Assembly: GCA_029555025.1 (NCBI GenBank)
Contig: JAKPTZ010000044.1
Span: forward strand, 1-41,810
DNA from: Deltaproteobacteria bacterium
Lineage (GTDB): Bacteria > Myxococcota_A > UBA9042 > DTJE01
Direction of reading: 5' to 3'
Length of the DNA stretch: 41,810 bases
Below, in pieces: positions 3,634 through 35,320 of the stretch. The position numbers were made by a program, and so were the translations under genes. The first letter of the stretch is position 1. Every line of letters begins with the position of its first letter. Below the pieces are notes generated by a model that saw only the letters and a list, made by a program, of their open reading frames with translations, made no database searches and was not told where the DNA came from.

Positions 3634-5376
3634 ATGGGGGACCGTTCCCGCGCCATGAATCGGAATTTTGAAGAAATCGCGGCCGGCACGCTGGCCGAGG
3701 CACTTGACAAACTGAAGGCCGCAGGCGGCGTGCCCGATGACTTCGAGCCAAAAATCGTTATCGAAAGGCCGAAGAATCCGGACTTCGGCGACTTCGGCTG
3801 CGCCCTGCCGATGCTGATGTGCAAGGCCACAAGAACCGCACCCGCCATATGCGGCAGGAACCTGATGGACAAGATCCAGGCCCCGCCCGGCATCTTCGAC
3901 GAAATCTCGTTCGCGCCCCCCGGATATATCAACTTCCGGGTCAGCCCGACCGCATGGTTCGAAGGGCTTCAGGCGGTCTGCGACATCCCGGACGTCGGCC
4001 ATGGACAGAAAGTCCTTCTTGAATTCGTTTCGGCCAACCCGACAGGCCCCCTTCACGCCGGACACGCCCGCGGGGCCGTACTGGGAGACATCGTCGCGAG
4101 GCTGATGAAGGTCGCGGGATACGAAGTTGAAACGGAATACCTGCTTAACGACGTCGGCAACCAGATGGCCATGCTCGGGCTGTCGATTTTTTATCGTGGC
4201 CGACAGGCGCTTGGACTGGCATCCGAGGTGGACTTCCCGGAAAACGGATACCGTGGCGATTACATCAGGGAAATCGCGGCACGTTTCGTGTCGGGACAGG
4301 AAGGCCGTGATTTCTGCGCGGCTTCATACCCGGAGGGTGCGGGCCGTGACGACAATCCCGCGGTAAGGTTCGCGGCCGGTCTGCTGACCGAGGAAATCCG
4401 GAAAACCCTGGACTGCCTTGCAATCAGGTTCGACCACTGGTTTTCGGAAAGAAGCCTTCACGATTCGGGCCGGGTGGCCTTCCTTGTGAACCGCCTTCTT
4501 GAATCGGGGGCGGCCTACCGGACGGACGACGGGGCGATCCTGTTTTCGATGGAAGGCGACGAGGACGGGGAAGATCGCGTCGTCGTGCGGGGCAACGGGG
4601 TTCCGACCTATTTCGCGGCAGATATCGCCTATCACGATGAAAAGGCCAGACGGGGATATGACCGCCTGATCAACATATGGGGCGCGGATCACCACGGATA
4701 TATCCCAAGGGTCAGGGCCGCGATGGGCGCGCTTGGACACAGTCCGTCGATGCTTGACGTGATCCTTGTCCAGATGGTGACGCTTACAAGAAACGGCGAA
4801 GTCGTTCCCATGGGCAAACGCCTCGGACGCTTCGTGACGCTTCAGGATCTGGTCGATGAGGTCGGCGCCGACGCCGTCCGCTTCATCTACATCATGCGTC
4901 GGGCCGACGCCCAGATGGAGTTCGACCTGGAACTGGCGAAGCAGAAGACGATGGACAACCCGGTCTATTACGTCCAGTACGGCCACGCGCGTGTCGCCTC
5001 GATCGTGCGAAAGGCGACCGGGATGGGATATCAGGTGCCGTCCTTCAGCCCGGATCTCCTGTCAAGCCTGACGCTGCCGGAAGAACTGGCCCTGGTCAAG
5101 GATCTGTGCCGGTTCCCCGGCATCGTTGCCCAGTCGGCCGCGAACTGCGAGCCGCACCATGTCTGCTTCTTCCTGATGGAACTGTGCAAGGGATTCCATT
5201 CGTACTACACGAAATACAAGTCTTCCGAACGCGTGGTCTCGGACGACCGGGACAAGACGCTCGCGCGCCTTTATCTTGTCTCGCGGATCAAATCCGTGCT
5301 TGGATACGGACTCGGGCTTCTTGGAGTGACCGCCCCCGAAGAGATGCGGTGCGAGGGAACGGATGTCGAATCCTGA
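3634..5376 (+). CDS. argS: Arginyl-tRNA synthetase
   Basis: This class I synthetase of 580 residues charges tRNA-Arg. The order is family-typical. An N-terminal tRNA-binding Add-1 domain carries NPDFGDFGCALPM. The catalytic domain follows with the HIGH-type motif HAGHARG (H141 from this start). MGKRLGRFVTL replaces KMSKS, as is common in this family, and is followed by DEVGADAVRF. A helical anticodon-binding DALR domain ends the protein. Two starts are possible: ATG at 3634, with AAGGA 13 nt upstream, and ATG at 3655, which gives an N-terminus closer to family length. The 3' end overlaps the SPOR gene by 14 nt, so the two are translationally linked. Confidence 0.97.
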   Translation: MGDRSRAMNRNFEEIAAGTLAEALDKLKAAGGVPDDFEPKIVIERPKNPDFGDFGCALPMLMCKATRTAPAICGRNLMDKIQAPPGIFDEISFAPPGYINFRVSPTAWFEGLQAVCDIPDVGHGQKVLLEFVSANPTGPLHAGHARGAVLGDIVARLMKVAGYEVETEYLLNDVGNQMAMLGLSIFYRGRQALGLASEVDFPENGYRGDYIREIAARFVSGQEGRDFCAASYPEGAGRDDNPAVRFAAGLLTEEIRKTLDCLAIRFDHWFSERSLHDSGRVAFLVNRLLESGAAYRTDDGAILFSMEGDEDGEDRVVVRGNGVPTYFAADIAYHDEKARRGYDRLINIWGADHHGYIPRVRAAMGALGHSPSMLDVILVQMVTLTRNGEVVPMGKRLGRFVTLQDLVDEVGADAVRFIYIMRRADAQMEFDLELAKQKTMDNPVYYVQYGHARVASIVRKATGMGYQVPSFSPDLLSSLTLPEELALVKDLCRFPGIVAQSAANCEPHHVCFFLMELCKGFHSYYTKYKSSERVVSDDRDKTLARLYLVSRIKSVLGYGLGLLGVTAPEEMRCEGTDVES

Positions 5377-6568
5377 CCTGGAAAATGACGCTCCGGAACA
5401 CGCAGGTGGCTCCGACACGGCCCGCAGGGTCAACGAAATCGAACTGCGCGATTTCGACCGCATTCGTGAACGAACTCCGTTCCAGTTGAAGCCGGTTCAT
5501 GTCAAAGTGGGGGCCGCCGCGGCACTTGCGACCATCGTGCTGGCCGTCGTCGCCGGTTGGATGCTTGGAAGAAGCGCCGACAAGGGGCGCCCCGCGATTC
5601 AGGAAATAACCGGGGATACGAAGCTCACGTCGGTTGAAACGGTTGCCGAAGGCGATCGTCCGGCGCTCGACGTCCCGACAGAATCGACCGGCAAGAAGCG
5701 ACGCAGGGTTCAGGGCAGCGTGCTTCCCCTGCCCGGGGCCGAACCTCGGCCGTCCGAGATGGTTGAAACGATCCGCCGCGGCCTGGATGAAGTGTCCCGG
5801 GAGGCCCCCGAGGTACAAGCCTTCGAGTGGTGGGAATACTTCGTTGCCATCAACTGCGCGTTTTCATGCCTCGAACCTTATTGCGCGTGCTCGGACGACC
5901 TTCCGGCGGCATGTCCGGAGCCGGAACCGGCCCCGGCAGTACCAGACGAACCGGAACCGGTGCCGGAACCAGCCCGGGAGCCTGTGCCTGAACAGGTGGC
6001 GGACCCTGGCCCGCAACCAGTGCCGGAAACCAAACCCGATGCCGCCCCGGAACCTGATGCGGTTTCTCCCGCCCACGCCAATGCCGAAGCGGAACCTGCC
6101 GACGGACAACGGCCGCCCGCGGACGCAGGAAGCAAGCCTGCCGCCGCGACGGAAGGGGCCACCGGGCCCCAGGCTCCGGCACAAATGGAACCTCCCGTGG
6201 CTTCCGGGGAACCGGCTGGCTCGAGTTCCCCGACACCAGACGGGGCTGTCCCGGAACACAGGCAGGCCGATCGGAAACAGGCGGTTGAGGCCGCCCGCAG
6301 GCAGGCGCCCGAAAAGAAGCCGGTTCCGCCCACGAAGTACTCGGTGCAGATAAGATCCTTCAAGGAAGAGGCCATCGCAAAGGACTTCGCCCGCGAATTC
6401 GGCGCGAAGGGGTATGATACTTTTGTCGTAAGCTATGTTGACCCGGCCGGGACGACCTGGTTCAGGGTGCGGACCGGACATTTCTCGACCGCCGCGGAAG
6501 CAACCGCCTTCGCGGCCCGGGTCAATTCGAAGGAGGCCGAGCAGGCCATCCCGGTGGAGGCAAAATGA
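5363..6568 (+). CDS. SPOR-domain membrane protein
   Basis: This 401-residue protein is predicted to sit in the inner membrane with a periplasmic C-terminus. It has a cytoplasmic segment (1 to 45), one membrane helix (about 47 to 68), a long Pro/Glu/Ala-rich linker, and a C-terminal SPOR domain (about 328 to 398, beginning TKYSVQIRSF). SPOR domains bind denuded peptidoglycan at division sites. A compact cysteine cluster around residues 157 to 182 sits at the start of the linker and is unusual for the family. The ATG at 5363 follows GAGGGAAC inside the end of argS. An argS-SPOR pair is a recurring arrangement in deltaproteobacteria. The stop overlaps the next ATG in an ATGA. Confidence 0.88.
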   Translation: MSNPDLENDAPEHAGGSDTARRVNEIELRDFDRIRERTPFQLKPVHVKVGAAAALATIVLAVVAGWMLGRSADKGRPAIQEITGDTKLTSVETVAEGDRPALDVPTESTGKKRRRVQGSVLPLPGAEPRPSEMVETIRRGLDEVSREAPEVQAFEWWEYFVAINCAFSCLEPYCACSDDLPAACPEPEPAPAVPDEPEPVPEPAREPVPEQVADPGPQPVPETKPDAAPEPDAVSPAHANAEAEPADGQRPPADAGSKPAAATEGATGPQAPAQMEPPVASGEPAGSSSPTPDGAVPEHRQADRKQAVEAARRQAPEKKPVPPTKYSVQIRSFKEEAIAKDFAREFGAKGYDTFVVSYVDPAGTTWFRVRTGHFSTAAEATAFAARVNSKEAEQAIPVEAK

Positions 6569-6942
6569 TTCCAATCATCGTCCCGAGAAAGGTCGAAAAG
6601 CCGTGGGGCTGGGAACTCTGGGTCGCCGTGACCGAGAAATACGCGGGAAAAATCATCCACATCAACCCGGGCCAGAAGCTTTCAAGGCAGTACCACATCA
6701 TCAAAGATGAAACCGTCTATGTGATCTCCGGCAGGCTGGTGGTCGAAATCGGCCAGGCAGGCACCGCCGAACGCTTCGATCTGCCGGCCGGCAAATCGAT
6801 GCGGGTTACCGCGGAAACGGTTCACAGGTTCATGTCGCCCGACGACGAGGCGGTCGAAATTTTCGAGACCTCGACCCCGGAGCTTGACGACGTGGTTCGG
6901 CTTGAAGACGTTTACGGACGCGAGGGGACTTCACGTCCCTGA
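6565..6942 (+). CDS. Cupin protein, mannose-6-phosphate isomerase type II-like
   Basis: This 125-residue single-domain cupin resembles the C-terminal isomerase domain of type II phosphomannose isomerase/GDP-mannose pyrophosphorylase and small YP-type sugar cupins. Visible features are VEKPWGWELW at the start, GQKLSRQYHIIKDETVYVISG (metal-ligand motif 1 with H and E), and a later TVHRF motif supplying the second histidine. Its activity and substrate are uncertain: it could be a sugar-phosphate isomerase or a binding cupin. It is translationally coupled to the SPOR gene through an ATGA overlap and precedes ridA by 27 bp, so it is probably in the argS operon. Confidence 0.8.
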   Translation: MIPIIVPRKVEKPWGWELWVAVTEKYAGKIIHINPGQKLSRQYHIIKDETVYVISGRLVVEIGQAGTAERFDLPAGKSMRVTAETVHRFMSPDDEAVEIFETSTPELDDVVRLEDVYGREGTSRP

Positions 6943-13229: not shown

Positions 13230-13315
13230 TGGTGCCAAGGGCGGGACTCGAACCCGCACGCCCTTGCGGACAAGGGATTTTAAGTCCCCTGCGTCTGCCA
13301 TTTCGCCACCTTGGC
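13230..13315 (-). tRNA. tRNA-Leu (anticodon UAA)
   Basis: The minus strand folds as a class II tRNA. The 7-bp acceptor GCCAAGG pairs with CCTTGGC, the anticodon loop is CTTAAAA with anticodon TAA, the variable arm is long and paired, and the T-arm is GCGGGTTCGAGTCCCGC. Discriminator A73 is followed by an encoded CCA (13230-13232). It reads UUA/UUG leucine codons. It sits convergent to the GH5-like gene and immediately precedes, on the other strand, the TPR lipoprotein gene. Confidence 0.97.
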
Positions 13316-22647: not shown

Positions 22648-25600
22648 ATGATGAAGTACATCCTTGTCGCCATGACAGCCGTCACGGCTCTTGGCCAGGC
22701 GGCCGTGGCCTTCCCGGCAATCCAGCGCAAACCGGAAAGCCCGGCCTTCACGATTCGTACATCGGCACCGGCAAGGGTGCCCGTGACACCGAATGTGATC
22801 CGGCTGGCTGGTAACGAGGTTTCGCTGGGTCATATTCCCCACCCGTTCGGGGTCGATGCGAGGCAGGCCTCGTCCGAACTGGACGCCTTCATGGCAAGCT
22901 CCAGGGATCCGCTTCCCTGGTCGGCCGGGATCCTGCCGACAGCCTTTGACCTGCGCGACTTTCCGGGGCGGGTTCCTCCGATTCGGGATCAGGGCAATTG
23001 CGGTTCGTGCTGGACATTCGCCACGACCGGCTGCAACGAGATGATGCTGACACCAGCCCAGTCGTGGGACTTCTCCGAAAACAACATGAAGGACAGGCAC
23101 GGTTTCGACTGGGGTCCCTGCGACGGCGGCAACGTCTTCATGTCGTCGGCATACCTGGCGCGCCACGACGGCCCGGTGCAGGAATCAAGCGACCCGTACA
23201 AGGATTGGGACGACACTGCCGACCCGGGATGGACGCCGGTGACCGGGCCGATACCGATCAAGTATTACGAACTCAGACTTCTGGCGGCCGACGGCAGCAA
23301 CTCGTACGTCCAGTCGATTAAGCAGGCAATCATGGACTACGGCCCTGTCGAGGTTAACTTCCGGGTGGCCGTCGATGAGCTTGGCAACACCAACATGGAT
23401 GCCTGGTCGACAAACCTGGATGCCTTTTACAGCGGTGAGACAGACTACTCGAACCACGCCGTAATCGCCGTCGGCTGGGACGACAACTATCCGGTTTCAA
23501 ACTTCAACCCGGCCATACAGCCACCGGGACCGGGAGCAATCCTGATTCGCAACAGCTGGGGCGACATCCACAACGGCGACGGATACTTCTGGATTTCCTA
23601 CCACCAGATGATCGAAACGCCTGCCGTTCACATGCCCGATGTCATCGACGGAACGACCACACCGGCCGTCCATCACGTTTATCAATACGATCCGCTTGGA
23701 TTTGTCGCCCCGTGGGGAAACGACACGCCGGGAGTCTCCTGGACGATGGGCAACATGTTCAAGGCCACTTCAAGGCAGAACCTGGAAGCCGCGTCTGCGT
23801 GGATGGCGGCCGACGGTTCGGTGCAGGTAAGGGTTGGCACCGGGTGCGGGACAACGCCGGATTCCTGTGCTTTCAACGCAACCGTATATTCGCGCGCGTA
23901 TGACCTTCCCGGCCTTTACGCGATCGACCTTTCGGCACTGGGTATTGTCCTTGAACAGGACGAAAACTTCTTCATCGAATACACGATTGGCAGTTCGACC
24001 AGCGGATACATGATCCCGACCGAGATGTACTATGCCGACTACGCATCGGGCGCTTCGGCGCAACCTGGCGAGTCATTCTTCTATGACTCCGGAACCTGGA
24101 TCGGTCTGCAGGACGCCCTCGGCGATTCATCTGTCAACCTGAACATAAAGGCGTTTACCTCGGACGTGATGACGTTGGGCGGGCTTGTAATCAACGAGAT
24201 CGATTACGACCAGCCCAGTACCGACACGGCGGAATTTATCGAAATCGCCAACAGATCCGGCGCCACGGTCTCGCTTGAAGGGTACAAGCTGGAATTGATT
24301 AACGGCTCCGGCGAACTGCTTTACCAGACGATCAACCTGCCGGTCGTGGATCTGGGGGCCGGGGACTACTTCGTCATCTGCCAGAACCCTGCCAACACGC
24401 CGAACTGCGACATGACATTCTCAGCCCTTGCGGCCCAGAACGGCGCTCCTGACGGATTGAGGCTCGTAAAGGATGGGATTGTCATCGATTCGATGGGCTA
24501 CGAAGGCAACATGTCAACCACCGAGGGAACTTCCACCACGCTTGTCGATGACTCCAGCAAGACCGGCATGGGGCTTTCAAGATTCCCTGATTTGAATGAC
24601 ACGGACAACAACGACTTCGACTTCAGGTTCGTGTGCAATTCCCCAGGCTTCCCGAACATATCGGCGACGGCGGACTGCCCCTGCGCGACCGTGGTCTGCG
24701 GCCCCAGGGAGACGTGCAACCCGGCTTCCGGCACGTGCCAGTGCATGGGCGGCTTCACCGGCCCGACCTGCGAGGATTGTGTCGCCGGACACTTCGGCCC
24801 GAACTGCCTGCCGTGCCCGGCATGCGGGGATCACGGCACCTGCCTTGATGGCACGATGGGCGACGGAACCTGCGAATGTGACGAAGGCTGGGCAGGAACG
24901 GTGTGCGATTCGTGCGACTCCGGCTTCTTCGGCCCGAACTGCATGACCTGTCCCGCATGCGTGTCCGGCACATGCGACGACGGAACCGATGGAAACGGCA
25001 TGTGCGTCTGCGACACCGGCTGGGTCGGTCCCCTTTGCGACACGTGCGCATCCGGCTACTGGGGCATGGACTGCACCGAGTGTCCGTCATGCGTTAATGG
25101 TTCGTGCCAGGACGGCAGCATGGGCGACGGAACCTGCGAATGCTTTGCAGGATGGGACGGAACGCTTTGCGAAGACTGCGCCACTGACTACTGGGGCTCG
25201 ACTTGCCAGGCGTGCCCCGACTGCCGCCCCAACGGATACTGCAGGGACGGGATTGGCGGCGACGGCGGTTGTGAATGCAACCCGGGCTGGCAGGGAACAT
25301 ACTGTGACGCGTGCGATTCAGGCTTCTTCGGCTCCACCTGCCAGGGCTGTCCCGACTGCAACAACGGAGTCTGCCTTGACGGGCTTGACGGCGACGGATC
25401 GTGCGAATGCGATTCGGGATGGGATGGCCAGTTCTGCGACACTTGCGCCCCGGGATTCTTCGGTCCGACCTGCATGAGATGCCCGGACTGTGGAAACGGC
25501 ACGTGCAACGACCTGATGGCCGGTGACGGTTCATGCGAATGCGATGTCGGATGGGCCGGCTCATCATGCGACGCATGCGCTCCAGGATTCTGGGGCCCGA

Positions 25601-28347
25601 ACTGTCTGCCCTGCCCCGATTGCGGCGAAGGCTTCTGCGAGGAAGGAATCGGCGGCCGCGGCATATGCATCTGCGCCCCAGGCTGGACAGGACCGGAGTG
25701 CGACGAATGCCGCACCGGCTTCTTCGGCCCGCTTTGTTCCGAATGCCCGAATTGCAACAACGGCATCTGCGACGATTCGATCCAGGGCACCGGAAGTTGT
25801 TACTGCGATGTCGGCTGGGATGGCGAACTCTGCGACGAATGCGCGACCGGGTACTTTGGCCCGGACTGCGCCGAATGCCCTGATTGCTTCGCCGGCACCT
25901 GCGCCGACGGAATTGCCGGGTCGGGCATGTGCATCTGCCCGGAAAACTGGCTGGGCCTGGGCTGCGACAATTGCGCGCCAGGCTTCTTCGGACCGATCTG
26001 CCAGCCGTGCCCGGACTGCGGCAACGGAAGGTGCAGCGACGGGATAATGGGCGACGGATACTGCGAATGCGATGAAGGGTTCGTAGGCAGGTACTGCGAC
26101 GAATGCGCCCCGGGTCACTTCGGCCCGGACTGCGACCGTTGCGGCAAGTGCCGCGGCGGCATGTGCCGGGACGGCATGGACGGCGACGGCGGCTGTGAAT
26201 GCTTCGACGCATGGACTGGCGAAATGTGCGACGAATGCGCGCCCGGGTACTGGGGCGATGAATGCGATCCCTGCCCCAATTGCGAAATGGGTCAATGCAA
26301 TGAAGGCGACGATGGAGACGGCACCTGCGTCTGCGATCCGGGCTGGGACGGAACCCTGTGCGATATATGCGCGGATGGATTCTTCGGCCTGATTTGCGAC
26401 CCCTGCCCCGAATGCGTGCATGGAATCTGCGACGACGGCATTTTCGGTGGCGGGAAGTGTTACTGCGAACCGGGATACGCTGGCGACCTTTGTGACGACT
26501 GCGTTGCCGGACACTTCGGCAATTCCTGTCAGGAATGCCCCGACTGCTTCGCCGGAACCTGTGCCGATGGAATCCGCGGCAGCGGAACGTGCGACTGCGA
26601 TGACGGATGGGTCGGCCCGCTGTGCAACCGCTGTAACGACGGGTTCTTCGGCGCCTTCTGCCTGGCTTGCCCCGACTGCGGCCACGGCATCTGCATCGAT
26701 GGCAGCGAAGGCTCCGGTGAATGCAGCTGCGATCCGGGATGGGCCGGCGCCGACTGCACTGCCTGTGCCCCCGGATACTACGGATCGGGATGCGACGAAT
26801 GCAGAAACTGCGTTAACGGCACGTGCAGGGATGGCCACGAAGGTGACGGAACCTGCGCCTGCGACGAAGGCTGGGCCGGACCCGACTGTTCCGATTGCGT
26901 TGCCGGCCGCTTCGGCCCCGACTGCCTGCCCTGTCCCGCGTGCGTGAACGGAACCTGCAGCCAGGGCGTTATTGGAACCGGCAAATGCGACTGCAAACCG
27001 GGATTCACGGGACTGCTTTGCGACGCCTGCGAAGAAGGCCACTTCGGTGCCGGCTGCACCGCCTGCGCCGACTGTGGCAGCGGAACATGCATCGACGGGA
27101 TTGAAGGCGACGGCTCGTGCGAATGCCCGGAAGGATGGGTCGGCCAGCGCTGCACCGAATGCGAATCCGGCTACTTCGGACCGGCTTGCAGCATGTGCCC
27201 GGAATGCGTTCACGGAACGTGCCGTGACGGGATCGAAGGCGACGGCGCGTGTGAATGCGACGATTACTGGGACGGCATCCTGTGTAACAGCATGTTCTGC
27301 GAACCGGAATGCGGCGACAACGCCACGTGTCACGAAGCGAACGAATGCAGATGCAACGAAGGGTTCAGTGGCGACGGATATGTCTGTGAGGATACAAACC
27401 CGTGCGCCGGCAAGGACGACTGGACGTCCTGCGACGGTGGATACTGCTTTGATGAAACCTGCACAGTGCTTCCGGAAGGGGACGAGTGCGAAGCCGCGAC
27501 CGAATTGGAGGTCGGCGCGGAAATGGCTGGCTCGCTGGCCGGATTCAGGCCGGCAGTGACGAACAGCATCATCTGCCAGGTGGCGGTGGAAAACGGACCC
27601 GATCGCTGGTTCATGTTCCATGTGACCGAGGGACTCAAATACAGAGTCGAACTTACGACTCTGACCTTCAATGCCGTCATGCAGGTGATGGACACCTGCC
27701 ATTCCAGTTCCGCATGCATCGCCAATGCCGACGAGGACGACGGCGCCGGAATTGAATCGGCAACATTTACGGCCGCTTCCGGCGGATATCTTGTCGTCCG
27801 CGTTGCGGCTGTCCAGGATTCCGTCACTTCCGGTGATTTCGTCCTTAAGGTGGAAGAGGTCCAGGAACCGGTTGACAACGGCACTTCGCCGGAAGAATCG
27901 GCCGACGAGGCCGTCGCGGACGTAATCGAGGACGTCGGCCAGGAAGATGCCAGCGATGATGACGCATCAGCCGAAGACATAGCGGCAGAAGACGCCGGCG
28001 ATGTGTCAACCGGGGATCTTAATGCCACGGACACGAATGTGCAGGATCTGTCGGAACCGGACATATCGGCCCCCGACACGTCCCTGCCCGACAACGCCGG
28101 CGACACCGCGTCGCAGGATACGGCGGTAACCCCCGATCCCGGTCGGGACGAAGGCAACGACACGGCCGTTTCCCAGGACGAATCGAACGTCAACGACGTG
28201 ACCGCCGACGACGGCGCCGAAGAAATCGGCCTGGGTGGCGGCGGTTCGTGCTCCGCCGGAGGTTCCGCCGGCTCTTCCAGTGCCGCGCTTGTCCTTCTGC
28301 TGCTGGTCTTCTGTGCGTTCGTGATGCGTCGCCGCAGGGTTGCCTGA
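22648..28347 (+). CDS. Giant papain-like protease with lamin-tail domain, 19 EGF-like repeats and MYXO-CTERM tail
   Basis: This secreted protein has 1899 residues. After a signal peptide (1 to about 22) comes a C1A papain-type peptidase with an intact catalytic set: Q115 and C121 in QGNCGSCW, H270 in SNHAVIAVGWDD and N302 in IRNSWGD. A lamin-tail-type beta domain (about 510 to 600, GLVINEIDYDQ) follows. Residues 709 to 1546 are 19 tandem 44 to 45 residue repeats with eight cysteines each, plus EGF-like modules at both ends. A PPC-like domain (about 1600 to 1740), an acidic D/E/A-rich tether and a GGGSCSAGG plus hydrophobic helix plus RRRR tail complete it. The repeats resemble metazoan stabilin/laminin EGF modules. 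It is probably a surface-displayed, later released protease. Confidence 0.93.
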   Translation: MMKYILVAMTAVTALGQAAVAFPAIQRKPESPAFTIRTSAPARVPVTPNVIRLAGNEVSLGHIPHPFGVDARQASSELDAFMASSRDPLPWSAGILPTAFDLRDFPGRVPPIRDQGNCGSCWTFATTGCNEMMLTPAQSWDFSENNMKDRHGFDWGPCDGGNVFMSSAYLARHDGPVQESSDPYKDWDDTADPGWTPVTGPIPIKYYELRLLAADGSNSYVQSIKQAIMDYGPVEVNFRVAVDELGNTNMDAWSTNLDAFYSGETDYSNHAVIAVGWDDNYPVSNFNPAIQPPGPGAILIRNSWGDIHNGDGYFWISYHQMIETPAVHMPDVIDGTTTPAVHHVYQYDPLGFVAPWGNDTPGVSWTMGNMFKATSRQNLEAASAWMAADGSVQVRVGTGCGTTPDSCAFNATVYSRAYDLPGLYAIDLSALGIVLEQDENFFIEYTIGSSTSGYMIPTEMYYADYASGASAQPGESFFYDSGTWIGLQDALGDSSVNLNIKAFTSDVMTLGGLVINEIDYDQPSTDTAEFIEIANRSGATVSLEGYKLELINGSGELLYQTINLPVVDLGAGDYFVICQNPANTPNCDMTFSALAAQNGAPDGLRLVKDGIVIDSMGYEGNMSTTEGTSTTLVDDSSKTGMGLSRFPDLNDTDNNDFDFRFVCNSPGFPNISATADCPCATVVCGPRETCNPASGTCQCMGGFTGPTCEDCVAGHFGPNCLPCPACGDHGTCLDGTMGDGTCECDEGWAGTVCDSCDSGFFGPNCMTCPACVSGTCDDGTDGNGMCVCDTGWVGPLCDTCASGYWGMDCTECPSCVNGSCQDGSMGDGTCECFAGWDGTLCEDCATDYWGSTCQACPDCRPNGYCRDGIGGDGGCECNPGWQGTYCDACDSGFFGSTCQGCPDCNNGVCLDGLDGDGSCECDSGWDGQFCDTCAPGFFGPTCMRCPDCGNGTCNDLMAGDGSCECDVGWAGSSCDACAPGFWGPNCLPCPDCGEGFCEEGIGGRGICICAPGWTGPECDECRTGFFGPLCSECPNCNNGICDDSIQGTGSCYCDVGWDGELCDECATGYFGPDCAECPDCFAGTCADGIAGSGMCICPENWLGLGCDNCAPGFFGPICQPCPDCGNGRCSDGIMGDGYCECDEGFVGRYCDECAPGHFGPDCDRCGKCRGGMCRDGMDGDGGCECFDAWTGEMCDECAPGYWGDECDPCPNCEMGQCNEGDDGDGTCVCDPGWDGTLCDICADGFFGLICDPCPECVHGICDDGIFGGGKCYCEPGYAGDLCDDCVAGHFGNSCQECPDCFAGTCADGIRGSGTCDCDDGWVGPLCNRCNDGFFGAFCLACPDCGHGICIDGSEGSGECSCDPGWAGADCTACAPGYYGSGCDECRNCVNGTCRDGHEGDGTCACDEGWAGPDCSDCVAGRFGPDCLPCPACVNGTCSQGVIGTGKCDCKPGFTGLLCDACEEGHFGAGCTACADCGSGTCIDGIEGDGSCECPEGWVGQRCTECESGYFGPACSMCPECVHGTCRDGIEGDGACECDDYWDGILCNSMFCEPECGDNATCHEANECRCNEGFSGDGYVCEDTNPCAGKDDWTSCDGGYCFDETCTVLPEGDECEAATELEVGAEMAGSLAGFRPAVTNSIICQVAVENGPDRWFMFHVTEGLKYRVELTTLTFNAVMQVMDTCHSSSACIANADEDDGAGIESATFTAASGGYLVVRVAAVQDSVTSGDFVLKVEEVQEPVDNGTSPEESADEAVADVIEDVGQEDASDDDASAEDIAAEDAGDVSTGDLNATDTNVQDLSEPDISAPDTSLPDNAGDTASQDTAVTPDPGRDEGNDTAVSQDESNVNDVTADDGAEEIGLGGGGSCSAGGSAGSSSAALVLLLLVFCAFVMRRRRVA
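24772..27285 (+). repeat. Array of 19 in-frame ~132-bp repeats encoding eight-cysteine EGF-like modules
   Basis: The DNA encodes 19 head-to-tail units of 44 codons (two of 45), each running from an xxC-xxGxFG start to a GWxGxxC end. The spacing of eight cysteines is nearly invariant, and GDGxCxC and GWxG recur in almost every unit. Protein conservation is high but DNA copies differ, so the array is not a recent perfect amplification. Confidence 0.95.
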
Positions 28348-29568: not shown

Positions 29569-29619
29569 AGAAATCCTCCGAAGGTGCGGAAGGCGGCATG
29601 AAGCCGCCTGGCCATCAGG

Positions 29620-29703
29620 TGCCGGAGGTGGGGGTCGAACCCACACGTCCTTGCGGACAACGGATTTTGAGTCCGCCGCGTCTGCCTGTTTCACCACTCC
29701 GGC
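29620..29703 (-). tRNA. tRNA-Leu (anticodon CAA)
   Basis: The minus strand gives a class II tRNA. Acceptor GCCGGAG pairs with CTCCGGC, the anticodon loop is CTCAAAA with anticodon CAA, the variable arm is long and paired, and the T-arm is GTGGGTTCGACCCCCAC. Discriminator A is at 29620. The following bases read CCT instead of CCA, so the 3' CCA must be added by nucleotidyltransferase. Confidence 0.97.
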
Positions 29704-32629: not shown

Positions 32630-33850
32630 ATGGCTGTCAATTCCCGGTTCGGAAGGTCGCTTTTACTGATGCTTGCCCTGACAGCGGCCGGATGCGGATC
32701 GTCGGGCTCGCAGGGGGCCGACCTTGCAGGTTCTGACGCGCTGGCGGACGACGTTGCCGACGCCTCGACGCCGGATGTGGCTGACGCCGCCGTCCACGAC
32801 ACGACCAATGACTCGGCGATTGATGCCGACGACGACTTGATCCCGTCCGACGTGACCTCCGACGATGGCGACGCATGGGTTCCATTTTATCCGGACACGC
32901 TCGTCATGGACGACGTCATCAGGCTCAATCAGATTCAGATAAAGGGTACGCACAACAGCTATCACATCGAGTCGCCGGAAAGCCTGCCGCAGTGGCGGTA
33001 CACGATGGCCCCGCTTGACGTGCAACTGGAAAGCCAGGCGGTGCGCCAGATCGAACTGGACATTCATCTTACATACGACAACGACCTTGAAGTGTTCCAC
33101 GTCCCCTTCGCCGACCCGCTTTCAACATGTGTGAAGTTCAAGGATTGTCTTCGGATTGTGCGAAACTGGTCCGACCGCAACCCTTCACATCTGCCGATAT
33201 TCATCCTGATCGAACCGAAGGACGACATGGACGGCGAGGATCTGAAACTTGTCGGGCGCCTGGATCTGGTGGAACAGGAAATCCTGACCGTATTCAGAAG
33301 GGAACGAATCATCACGCCCGACGAAGTCCGCAACGGTCATTCAAGCCTTCGCGAGGCCCTGGTGCAGGACGGCTGGCCGACGCTGGGACAATCCCGTGGA
33401 AGGGTCATGTTCCTGATGCTTGATAACGCGGAGCACCTTGACGCATACGTGCTCCAGCGCCCGAATCTTGAGGGTGCCCTGATATTCGGCCGCAACGGAC
33501 GCGGAGAACCGTGGTCGTCGATTCTTGAACTGATGCACCCCGACAGGGAATCCAGGTTCCAGGAAATTCAATCGGCCGTTGATGAAAACTATCTGGTTCG
33601 TTCAAACGCCGACGATTCGGATACCCCGGCCGCCGAAGCCGAAGTGAAGGGGGCAAAGGCCATCGAATCCGGCGCTCACCTGATCAACACCGACCACCCG
33701 GTCATGGGATCCGTTTCAAACCAGGATCCTGACTACAAATTCGACCTGCCTGACGGCGTCACGGCGATCTGCAATGCGAAAAACGCGCCGGAAGGCTGCA
33801 CTCCGGAAATCCTGGAACGGCTGAAGCCAGACTACGGCGCATCGAATTGA
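32630..33850 (+). CDS. Phosphoinositide-specific phospholipase C-like lipoprotein
   Basis: This 406-residue predicted lipoprotein (lipobox LTAAGC) has an Asp/Ala/Thr-rich tether of about 65 residues, then a domain like the calcium-dependent PI-PLC group of bacteria. IQIKGTHNSYHIES carries the first catalytic His (H108), QIELDIHL the metal-binding acidics, LEVFHVPF the second His (H157), and FILIEPKDD further ligands. These enzymes cleave phosphatidylinositol-type lipids; whether this one does is inferred. The ATG at 32630 has AAGGGGTG 9 nt upstream; a GTG four codons earlier is an alternative. It is convergent with the large minus-strand RNA and shares its terminator hairpin. Confidence 0.86.
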   Translation: MAVNSRFGRSLLLMLALTAAGCGSSGSQGADLAGSDALADDVADASTPDVADAAVHDTTNDSAIDADDDLIPSDVTSDDGDAWVPFYPDTLVMDDVIRLNQIQIKGTHNSYHIESPESLPQWRYTMAPLDVQLESQAVRQIELDIHLTYDNDLEVFHVPFADPLSTCVKFKDCLRIVRNWSDRNPSHLPIFILIEPKDDMDGEDLKLVGRLDLVEQEILTVFRRERIITPDEVRNGHSSLREALVQDGWPTLGQSRGRVMFLMLDNAEHLDAYVLQRPNLEGALIFGRNGRGEPWSSILELMHPDRESRFQEIQSAVDENYLVRSNADDSDTPAAEAEVKGAKAIESGAHLINTDHPVMGSVSNQDPDYKFDLPDGVTAICNAKNAPEGCTPEILERLKPDYGASN

Positions 33851-33879
33851 ACCGGCAACCGTACCTGTCTCCGCGACAG

Positions 33880-33917
33880 AAAAAAAAAGGGCGCCGTACC
33901 GAAGCACGACGCCCTTT
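33880..33917 (-). terminator. Strong intrinsic terminator of the large minus-strand RNA
   Basis: Read on the minus strand, an 8-bp stem AAAGGGCG/CGCCCTTT, extended by an inner CGT/ACG after one mismatch, is followed directly by nine T. This is a classic intrinsic terminator. For the plus-strand PI-PLC-like transcript the same stem is followed only by TAATAG, so it is weaker in that direction. Confidence 0.9.
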
Positions 33918-34998
33918 AATAGACGTGAAGACAGGTGGACGACCGTTGTCCCCCCCAGAGCTGAATATTTCCAGGTTGCCGCAACGACATCGCTGCCGTT
34001 CGGCATCCTCTCTTGCAGTTAACGTGTCTCTCGAAGATCCCCCGACAGCCTGGCGTCTTACTGGTTCGACGCTCCCGTCCTGCGGTTCTGGCCGCTTCAC
34101 GGTTTTCGGCTGAAGGGCGCGCCCCCTGTTACGAGGTTCGCGAAACCTTCCTCAGACTTCGCTCTGCTTCAGAGTTTGAGCCTGGAATACCCTGCATCGC
34201 ATTCGCGATGCCCGCTCTCACGAGGTTTCTCGCCCCTTCGACGCAACCCGGACGCTCGAGCAACCACCCCCGGGCCATCCAGACCCGGGTCAAGTTACGT
34301 CCTTCCGCTTACCATGCGGTTCGACGTCTTGCTCCCGAAGCGACCTCCCTGGTGTCTTTCAACCAGGCGCGTCCATGGGGTTCGGTTCCCTTCAGAGCTT
34401 GCCCAAACGGAAATCACCGCTGCCTCTCGGCCGCGGTATCCCCTCCTGCGATTGGCAGACGGTTGGATCACGCGCCTTTTCGACCCGAAGGTCGATTCAG
34501 CAACCTGTCTCCCCGGACCCCGACATATCCACGCCGCTCTCGCAGCCGGCCTTTGTCGGTACGCCTCCGGCCGCGCCGTGCTTTCGCATGTTGCCACCTT
34601 TGGTTCCGGTTCATCGACAGGGTGTCCGCGATCGCCGCGTGACTTCGTCAATGACGAGTCACGGCCTCGCTTCAGGGGTTTAAGCCTTCCGCTGGTTGGG
34701 TCCCGACGTAAGGTTTCCCCCCGTTTCAAGGACCTGGCTCTCCTGGGTTTTTCCCTTCCTGAGGCCTTCCCCTTCCCCGGCCTCGGCCTTTCGGCCTCCT
34801 GACGGGTACTTCAGGAAGGTTCCCGGTCTGGGTACCTTTCCCTGTACTTCAAAGTTTCAAAGAACCGGGGAAATTGGCTTGTCTCTTCCGAGACTGCCGG
34901 CCTTTTCAAGGTTCTTGTCCTTGTTCCCTTCGCGACCCCTTTCGGGTTCGTTTCAGGATTTCGGACCGGCCATCCGACTTCCCGTCGTCACGTCCATT
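33880..34998 (-). ncRNA. Large structured noncoding RNA of unknown class, about 1.1 kb
   Basis: The unit runs from a near-consensus promoter (35003-35031) to an intrinsic terminator. The minus strand is purine-rich, with many stable hairpins. Examples are GGCC-GAAA-GGCC (34785-34796), GTCTC-GGAA-GAGAC (34881-34894), a GAGA-capped stem (34533-34546), TCGACC-TTCG-GGTCGA (34480-34495), a 7-bp stem at 34194-34211 and a 6-bp plus 4-bp bulged stem at 34639-34662. A three-way junction joins 34754-34760 with 34813-34819 and 34761-34766 with 34779-34784. GNRA and UUCG loops are correctly oriented only on the minus strand. No protein with a ribosome site or recognisable domain is found on either strand. 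I saw no rRNA, tmRNA, RNase P or group II domain V signature. Size is like GOLLD/ROOL/OLE-type RNAs, but none is recognised. Confidence 0.72.
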
Positions 34999-35002
34999 CA
35001 GG

Positions 35003-35031
35003 AATATAGGACGGCCCCAGCCAAAGGTCAA
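35003..35031 (-). promoter_or_regulatory. Near-consensus promoter with AT-rich upstream block driving the large RNA
   Basis: On the minus strand TTGACC (35031-35026) and TATATT (35008-35003) are exactly 17 bp apart. Upstream of the -35, 35041-35120 is strongly AT-rich with A- and T-tracts in an otherwise GC-rich genome, like an UP element of stable-RNA promoters. The predicted start is about 34998. Confidence 0.75.
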
Positions 35032-35320
35032 TAGCGGTGTCCAAATTACGCAAAAACACCTTGATTTAATTGAATAATTAAAACAGGACAAATAAGACCT
35101 CCGAATTTTTTATACAACTTTTGAACAGGCGTTACAGGCAGTCCAATAGCCTCATTTCGGCGCTCAATTCCGGAAAATGTGCGACCAGTGCGGGCGACAT
35201 GGCTATCGACATACGCAAAGCAGCACCGGGACTGGGTCTGACGAACATTTTCGACAGGGGTTGCCAACGGCTCCCGTCTTCGACGGCCCGATCTTCTTTA
35301 CAATTTTTTTTGAAACATTT
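35032..35320. other. Gene-free AT-rich region between the histidine kinase and the large RNA
   Basis: No gene is supported here. The left part is AT-rich and forms the upstream block of the RNA promoter. A short minus frame beginning TTG at 35267 encodes 73 residues with no recognisable match. A CCGTC-GAA-GACGG hairpin (35273-35285) lies after the kinase stop without a following T-run. Confidence 0.5.

Follow-up and report, generated by a model that had tools for sequence, protein, structure and literature searches.

Few very large bacterial RNA classes have conserved folds, and the best known of them recently proved to be RNA-only assemblies. GOLLD is a multi-domain non-coding RNA of more than 800 nt, of unknown function and with a variable linker, and ROOL is a large, ornate, stand-alone RNA (PMC12286853). 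OLE, about 600 nt long and found mostly in Gram-positive extremophiles and anaerobes (PMC9723947), is a structured RNA whose exact function is unknown and which assembles into an RNP and into an RNA dimer (PMC12286853). Precursors of rRNA operons carry a boxA and a leader-trailer helix (PMC10250234). The RNA described here comes closest in style to OLE, ROOL and GOLLD (PMC12286853), and none of their testable defining features was found in it.

The window, a 41,810-nt stretch of DNA from an uncultured myxobacterium deposited as Deltaproteobacteria, contains a region that the initial annotation, made from the letters alone, took for a large structured non-coding RNA. The analysis supported this reading and added a span of two phyla, related domains and a boxA-like element; the locus almost certainly represents a real structured RNA class. 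Judging from the fold, the homologues and the covariation, the transcript of about 1.1 kb would occupy 33879-34998 of the minus strand, with a helix closing its 5′ and 3′ ends and an intrinsic terminator, and these ends agree to within a few bases with the 33880-34998 originally proposed. The near-consensus minus-strand promoter reported at one end is of sigma-70 type, TTGACC-17-TATATT (35031-35003), and is the sole promoter-like match in 33800-35300, where 0.3 were expected. A similar promoter stands 6-8 nt 5′ of the RNA body, just before the first aligned base, in the 12 homologues having upstream sequence: at the best match the distance from the end of the -10 box was 6 nt in ten of them and 8 nt in two. 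Three of these promoters are weak, those of L033, L038 and L041 being individually no better than shuffles. At the other end the intrinsic terminator (33879-33917, minus strand) was recovered as a 14-pair hairpin (33917-33886) followed by a T run. The scan found two terminator-like sites against a shuffle mean of 2.0, so by itself it is weak evidence for a terminator; a terminal hairpin with a T-rich tail is present at the same place in 11 of 13 homologues, the T run being missing in L039 and L042. Across the homologues the promoter is conserved and the terminator mostly so. Folding of 34200-34998 gave z = -5.2 for the minus strand and z = -3.0 for the plus strand (20 shuffles each); promoter, terminator and folding energy all agree with the minus strand as the RNA sense strand.

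A blastn search over 53 relatives located the RNA in 12 further genomes from the family and the class; one match, at 80% identity, covered nearly the full length. An exact-pattern scan of public genomes identified these carriers as Myxococcota MAGs, of which several had been deposited as Deltaproteobacteria and one as Oligoflexales; it also added one Planctomycetota MAG. The contig deposited as Oligoflexales (L063, DUVQ01000126) is apparently the same as one (G002:C69) that falls in the window's own family in the genome search. A covariance model of domain B, described below, was positive in at least 16 of the 52 genomes in the class. In Myxococcota as a whole it matched at least 36 of 379 genomes, representing 25 of 236 genera, and in Planctomycetota at least 7 of the 392 that were sampled; overall, at least eight Planctomycetota genomes carry the RNA. 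Searches of more than 40 genomes ran under stricter filters, and the genome counts are therefore lower bounds. None of 396 genomes in a third phylum, that of an Acidimicrobiaceae genome, matched the model, and the Acidimicrobiaceae candidate (L057) was rejected as a chance match. The family is common to Myxococcota and Planctomycetota. Planctomycetota members measure 1.07-1.25 kb and have a similar promoter and an analogous closing helix, with a terminator-like hairpin in several. Genomes hold one to three copies, two or three in some cases; L109/L110 and L111/L112 are pairs of RNA subtypes within the same genomes, the second subtype having conserved neighbour genes.

Helix covariation among homologues, which the initial annotation had listed among its checks, was strong. 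With 13 full-length members aligned by MAFFT, RNAalifold gave 281 pairs, 143 of them with compensatory double changes, as compared with a mean of 86 such pairs in shuffles. The full-length fold was 91.1% paired against 80.9% after shuffling, and its covariation was 0.371 against 0.179 in shuffled and at most 0.12 in slid controls. A second run of alignment (MAFFT) and folding gave 224 pairs, 115 with double changes, and seven Planctomycetota members folded separately gave 298, of which 153 had double changes. For the domain B model, with 55 sites, 92.6% of cells were paired (65.5% in shuffles) and covariation was 0.622 (0.176 in shuffles); model pairs filled the first 14 places of a mutual-information ranking made on an alignment that had been fitted to the model. 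In the full-length fold the transcript's 5′ and 3′ ends are also paired with each other. The 5′ strand of this leader-trailer-like closing helix lies at 34967-34996 and its 3′ strand at 33920-33945 (both minus strand), the latter seen in the full-length fold as well as by RNAalifold, which found 12 double-change pairs in helices placed at 15/1091 and 36/1074 of the RNA.

In the consensus fold four domains branch off the closing helix, all on the minus strand. The 5′ domain A (34754-34966) has the most conserved sequence in the homologue comparison and includes the GGCNNYCTCGNNAGAGRNNAGCC hairpin. It is followed by a middle domain (34388-34747, from the RNAalifold consensus) with a region of variable-length insertion; it is here that L045, whose RNA is about 2.3 kb long, has an insertion of about 1.4 kb rich in UUCG-capped hairpins (5203-6678). 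Domain B (34231-34383) and the 3′ domain C (33950-34225, core 33971-34178) were delimited with covariance models R1 and R3, respectively. Domain B is also matched by the 3′ domain model within the RNA itself (24 bits, E 5e-7), and domains B and C therefore look paralogous. Domain B is itself duplicated in tandem in L123 (4998-5407) and L130 (5331-5784). The RNA thus appears to contain tandem domains that are partly related to one another. Of the stems capped by GNRA or UUCG loops that had been described, the GNRA loops were present in the alignment (RNA positions 121-126, 582-587 and 1017-1022), and UUCG caps the terminator in only some members. The consensus contains eleven 3x3 internal loops, about ten of which are of one type. 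The outer purine pairs of this recurrent loop switch between G.G (162 of 270 outer non-canonical pairs) and A.A (78 of 270), and the middle position is free. Ranks 15 and 17 of the mutual-information list for domain B went to the outer pairs of one 3x3 loop, left unpaired by the model; one of these two is G.G in 41 cases, A.A in 13 and G.A in none.

Large regulatory RNAs exist, and the many conserved unpaired purine loops seen in the alignment could belong to a trans-acting regulator, antisense or protein-titrating, rather than to a scaffold. We regard this as rather unlikely, since what is conserved over two phyla is structure together with tertiary-like modules rather than an exposed antisense seed.

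The size, the GNRA loops and the multi-domain layout would also suit a ribozyme or a mobile, self-cleaving or self-splicing intron-like retroelement such as a divergent intron of group I or II, as would the presence of more than one copy in some genomes and the large variable insertion in L045. This explanation is improbable, because the RNA has its own promoter and terminator in place of exons, no reverse transcriptase was found among the flanking genes tested, and the Rfam search for introns came up empty, at E up to 5 for the window and at the gathering score for 15 other loci. Those 15 loci matched no other family, and in the window no family reached the gathering score; only terminator look-alikes appeared at E up to 5. 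The Rfam models of SSU and LSU rRNA had no match in the window, those of the group I and group II catalytic cores did not recognise it, and those of GOLLD, ROOL and OLE likewise did not match; a hit to rRNA or a known intron, which the initial annotation had listed as refuting its reading, was thus absent. The family was not found in the sources searched: besides the lack of an Rfam match, blastn found nothing among 50,697 phage or 72,556 plasmid records, and a search of an open-licence library of papers turned up no description of it, although one may exist elsewhere.

These phage and plasmid searches also bear on a third possibility, that of a prophage- or plasmid-borne RNA of GOLLD or ROOL type serving a mobile element. 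Its size and style are alike and its function is similarly unknown, but this origin is very improbable. Carriage by phages or prophages, often near tRNAs, as in GOLLD and ROOL, was not detected in the phage, plasmid, viral and PHROGs searches, and the nearest tRNA gene is more than 4 kb from the RNA. (The window has two tRNA-Leu genes, TAA and CAA, at 13230-13315 and 29618-29703 of the minus strand; at 22648-28347 of the plus strand it also has an ORF of 1899 aa matching papain-like protease, lamin-tail, laminin-EGF and teneurin-EGF.) The locus is syntenic in close relatives. Apart from this orthologous synteny, no flanking gene family is common to different loci, and this difference in neighbours indicates that the gene is autonomous. 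Ordinary genes flank the loci (histidine kinase, PI-PLC, BipA, aminopeptidase P, beta-lactamase fold), no partner protein was found, and ten neighbours compared with PHROGs gave generic enzyme domains, with the exception of the replicase of one viral contig. This contig, L067 (IMGVR_UViG_3300038164_000012) of IMG/VR, has a levivirus-type replicase and provided the one true match in the viral collection; nine further viral contigs from looser pattern scans were chance matches according to the covariance models. Its end (2280-2643) consists of 364 nt from the 5′ region of the RNA, with 71% GC against 45.5% for the rest of the contig, and the fusion is most likely an assembly or template-switch chimera. 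To our knowledge levivirus-type RNA phages have no DNA stage, so the library was probably made from RNA and a metatranscriptomic origin is probable; the fusion therefore suggests that a member of the RNA family is expressed.

That the region codes for protein, or once did, and mimics structure through its base composition is practically dismissed: in agreement with the earlier view that no credible protein is present, substitutions relative to the 80%-identical homologue were spread over the three codon positions as 74/80/68, i.e. without codon periodicity, gaps were mostly 1-2 nt long, and the opposite strand has open frames up to 259 codons long plausibly because the RNA strand is poor in T.

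A boxA-like element, GGTTCTTTGAAAC, is proposed at 34854-34866 (minus strand) from the conservation of TCTTTGA and from comparison with rRNA leaders. Every one of the 13 close homologues has a single TCTTTGA; the word is found as well in L044, L104 and L105 and, 80-95 nt after the -35 box, in six of the seven members of one Planctomycetota set. L045, L049 and several others lack it. The rRNA leaders of related Myxococcota have GCTCCTTGAAAACT and that of one planctomycete has ATCTTTGACA, and the word in the RNA differs from the boxA that rRNA leaders of related genomes carry. The motif is suggestive, but not proof, of an rRNA-type antitermination site.

Taken together, we favour an autonomous giant-RNA gene with boxA antitermination, a closing helix and a role as a scaffold, oligomer or RNP, and give this statement as a whole a probability of about 0.5. 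The data demonstrate where the gene begins and ends, its fold, its conservation and its autonomy; the rest is our interpretation. The RNA would be transcribed from its own promoter, and the boxA-like site may recruit the Nus machinery of rRNA antitermination, by which an untranslated transcript of 1.1-2.4 kb could escape Rho and perhaps become abundant. Its ends would then pair into the closing helix from which the four domains branch. By analogy with OLE, ROOL and GOLLD, the folded RNA would most likely, as our best guess, act as a structural scaffold, either an RNA-only homo-oligomer or the core of an RNP. Somewhat more tentatively, and at a little under even odds, we suggest a previously undescribed giant structural RNA class of two phyla that is made like rRNA and whose tandem related domains self-assemble by means of a new, recurrent 3x3 homopurine module.

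Compared with the known systems, the RNA shares with GOLLD its large size, multi-domain non-coding character and variable region; GOLLD, however, resides in phages and prophages, often near tRNA islands, whereas the present RNA has other hosts and no phage or plasmid copies. ROOL is likewise large, ornate and stand-alone, but its length is about 600 nt, and the RNA studied here is longer, chromosomal in Myxococcota and Planctomycetota and without an Rfam match. OLE is shorter, has other hosts, and its model does not match. The rRNA precursors differ in carrying rRNA sequence and a different boxA word, yet they resemble this RNA in their paired transcript ends and in the boxA near the 5′ end, whose counterpart here is the putative boxA-like element. 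With a length about double that of OLE and a presence in two widespread phyla, one more unrelated class would make it possible to test directly whether quaternary structures of RNA are common; it also brings a non-canonical loop module that recurs and may provide a link to rRNA antitermination.
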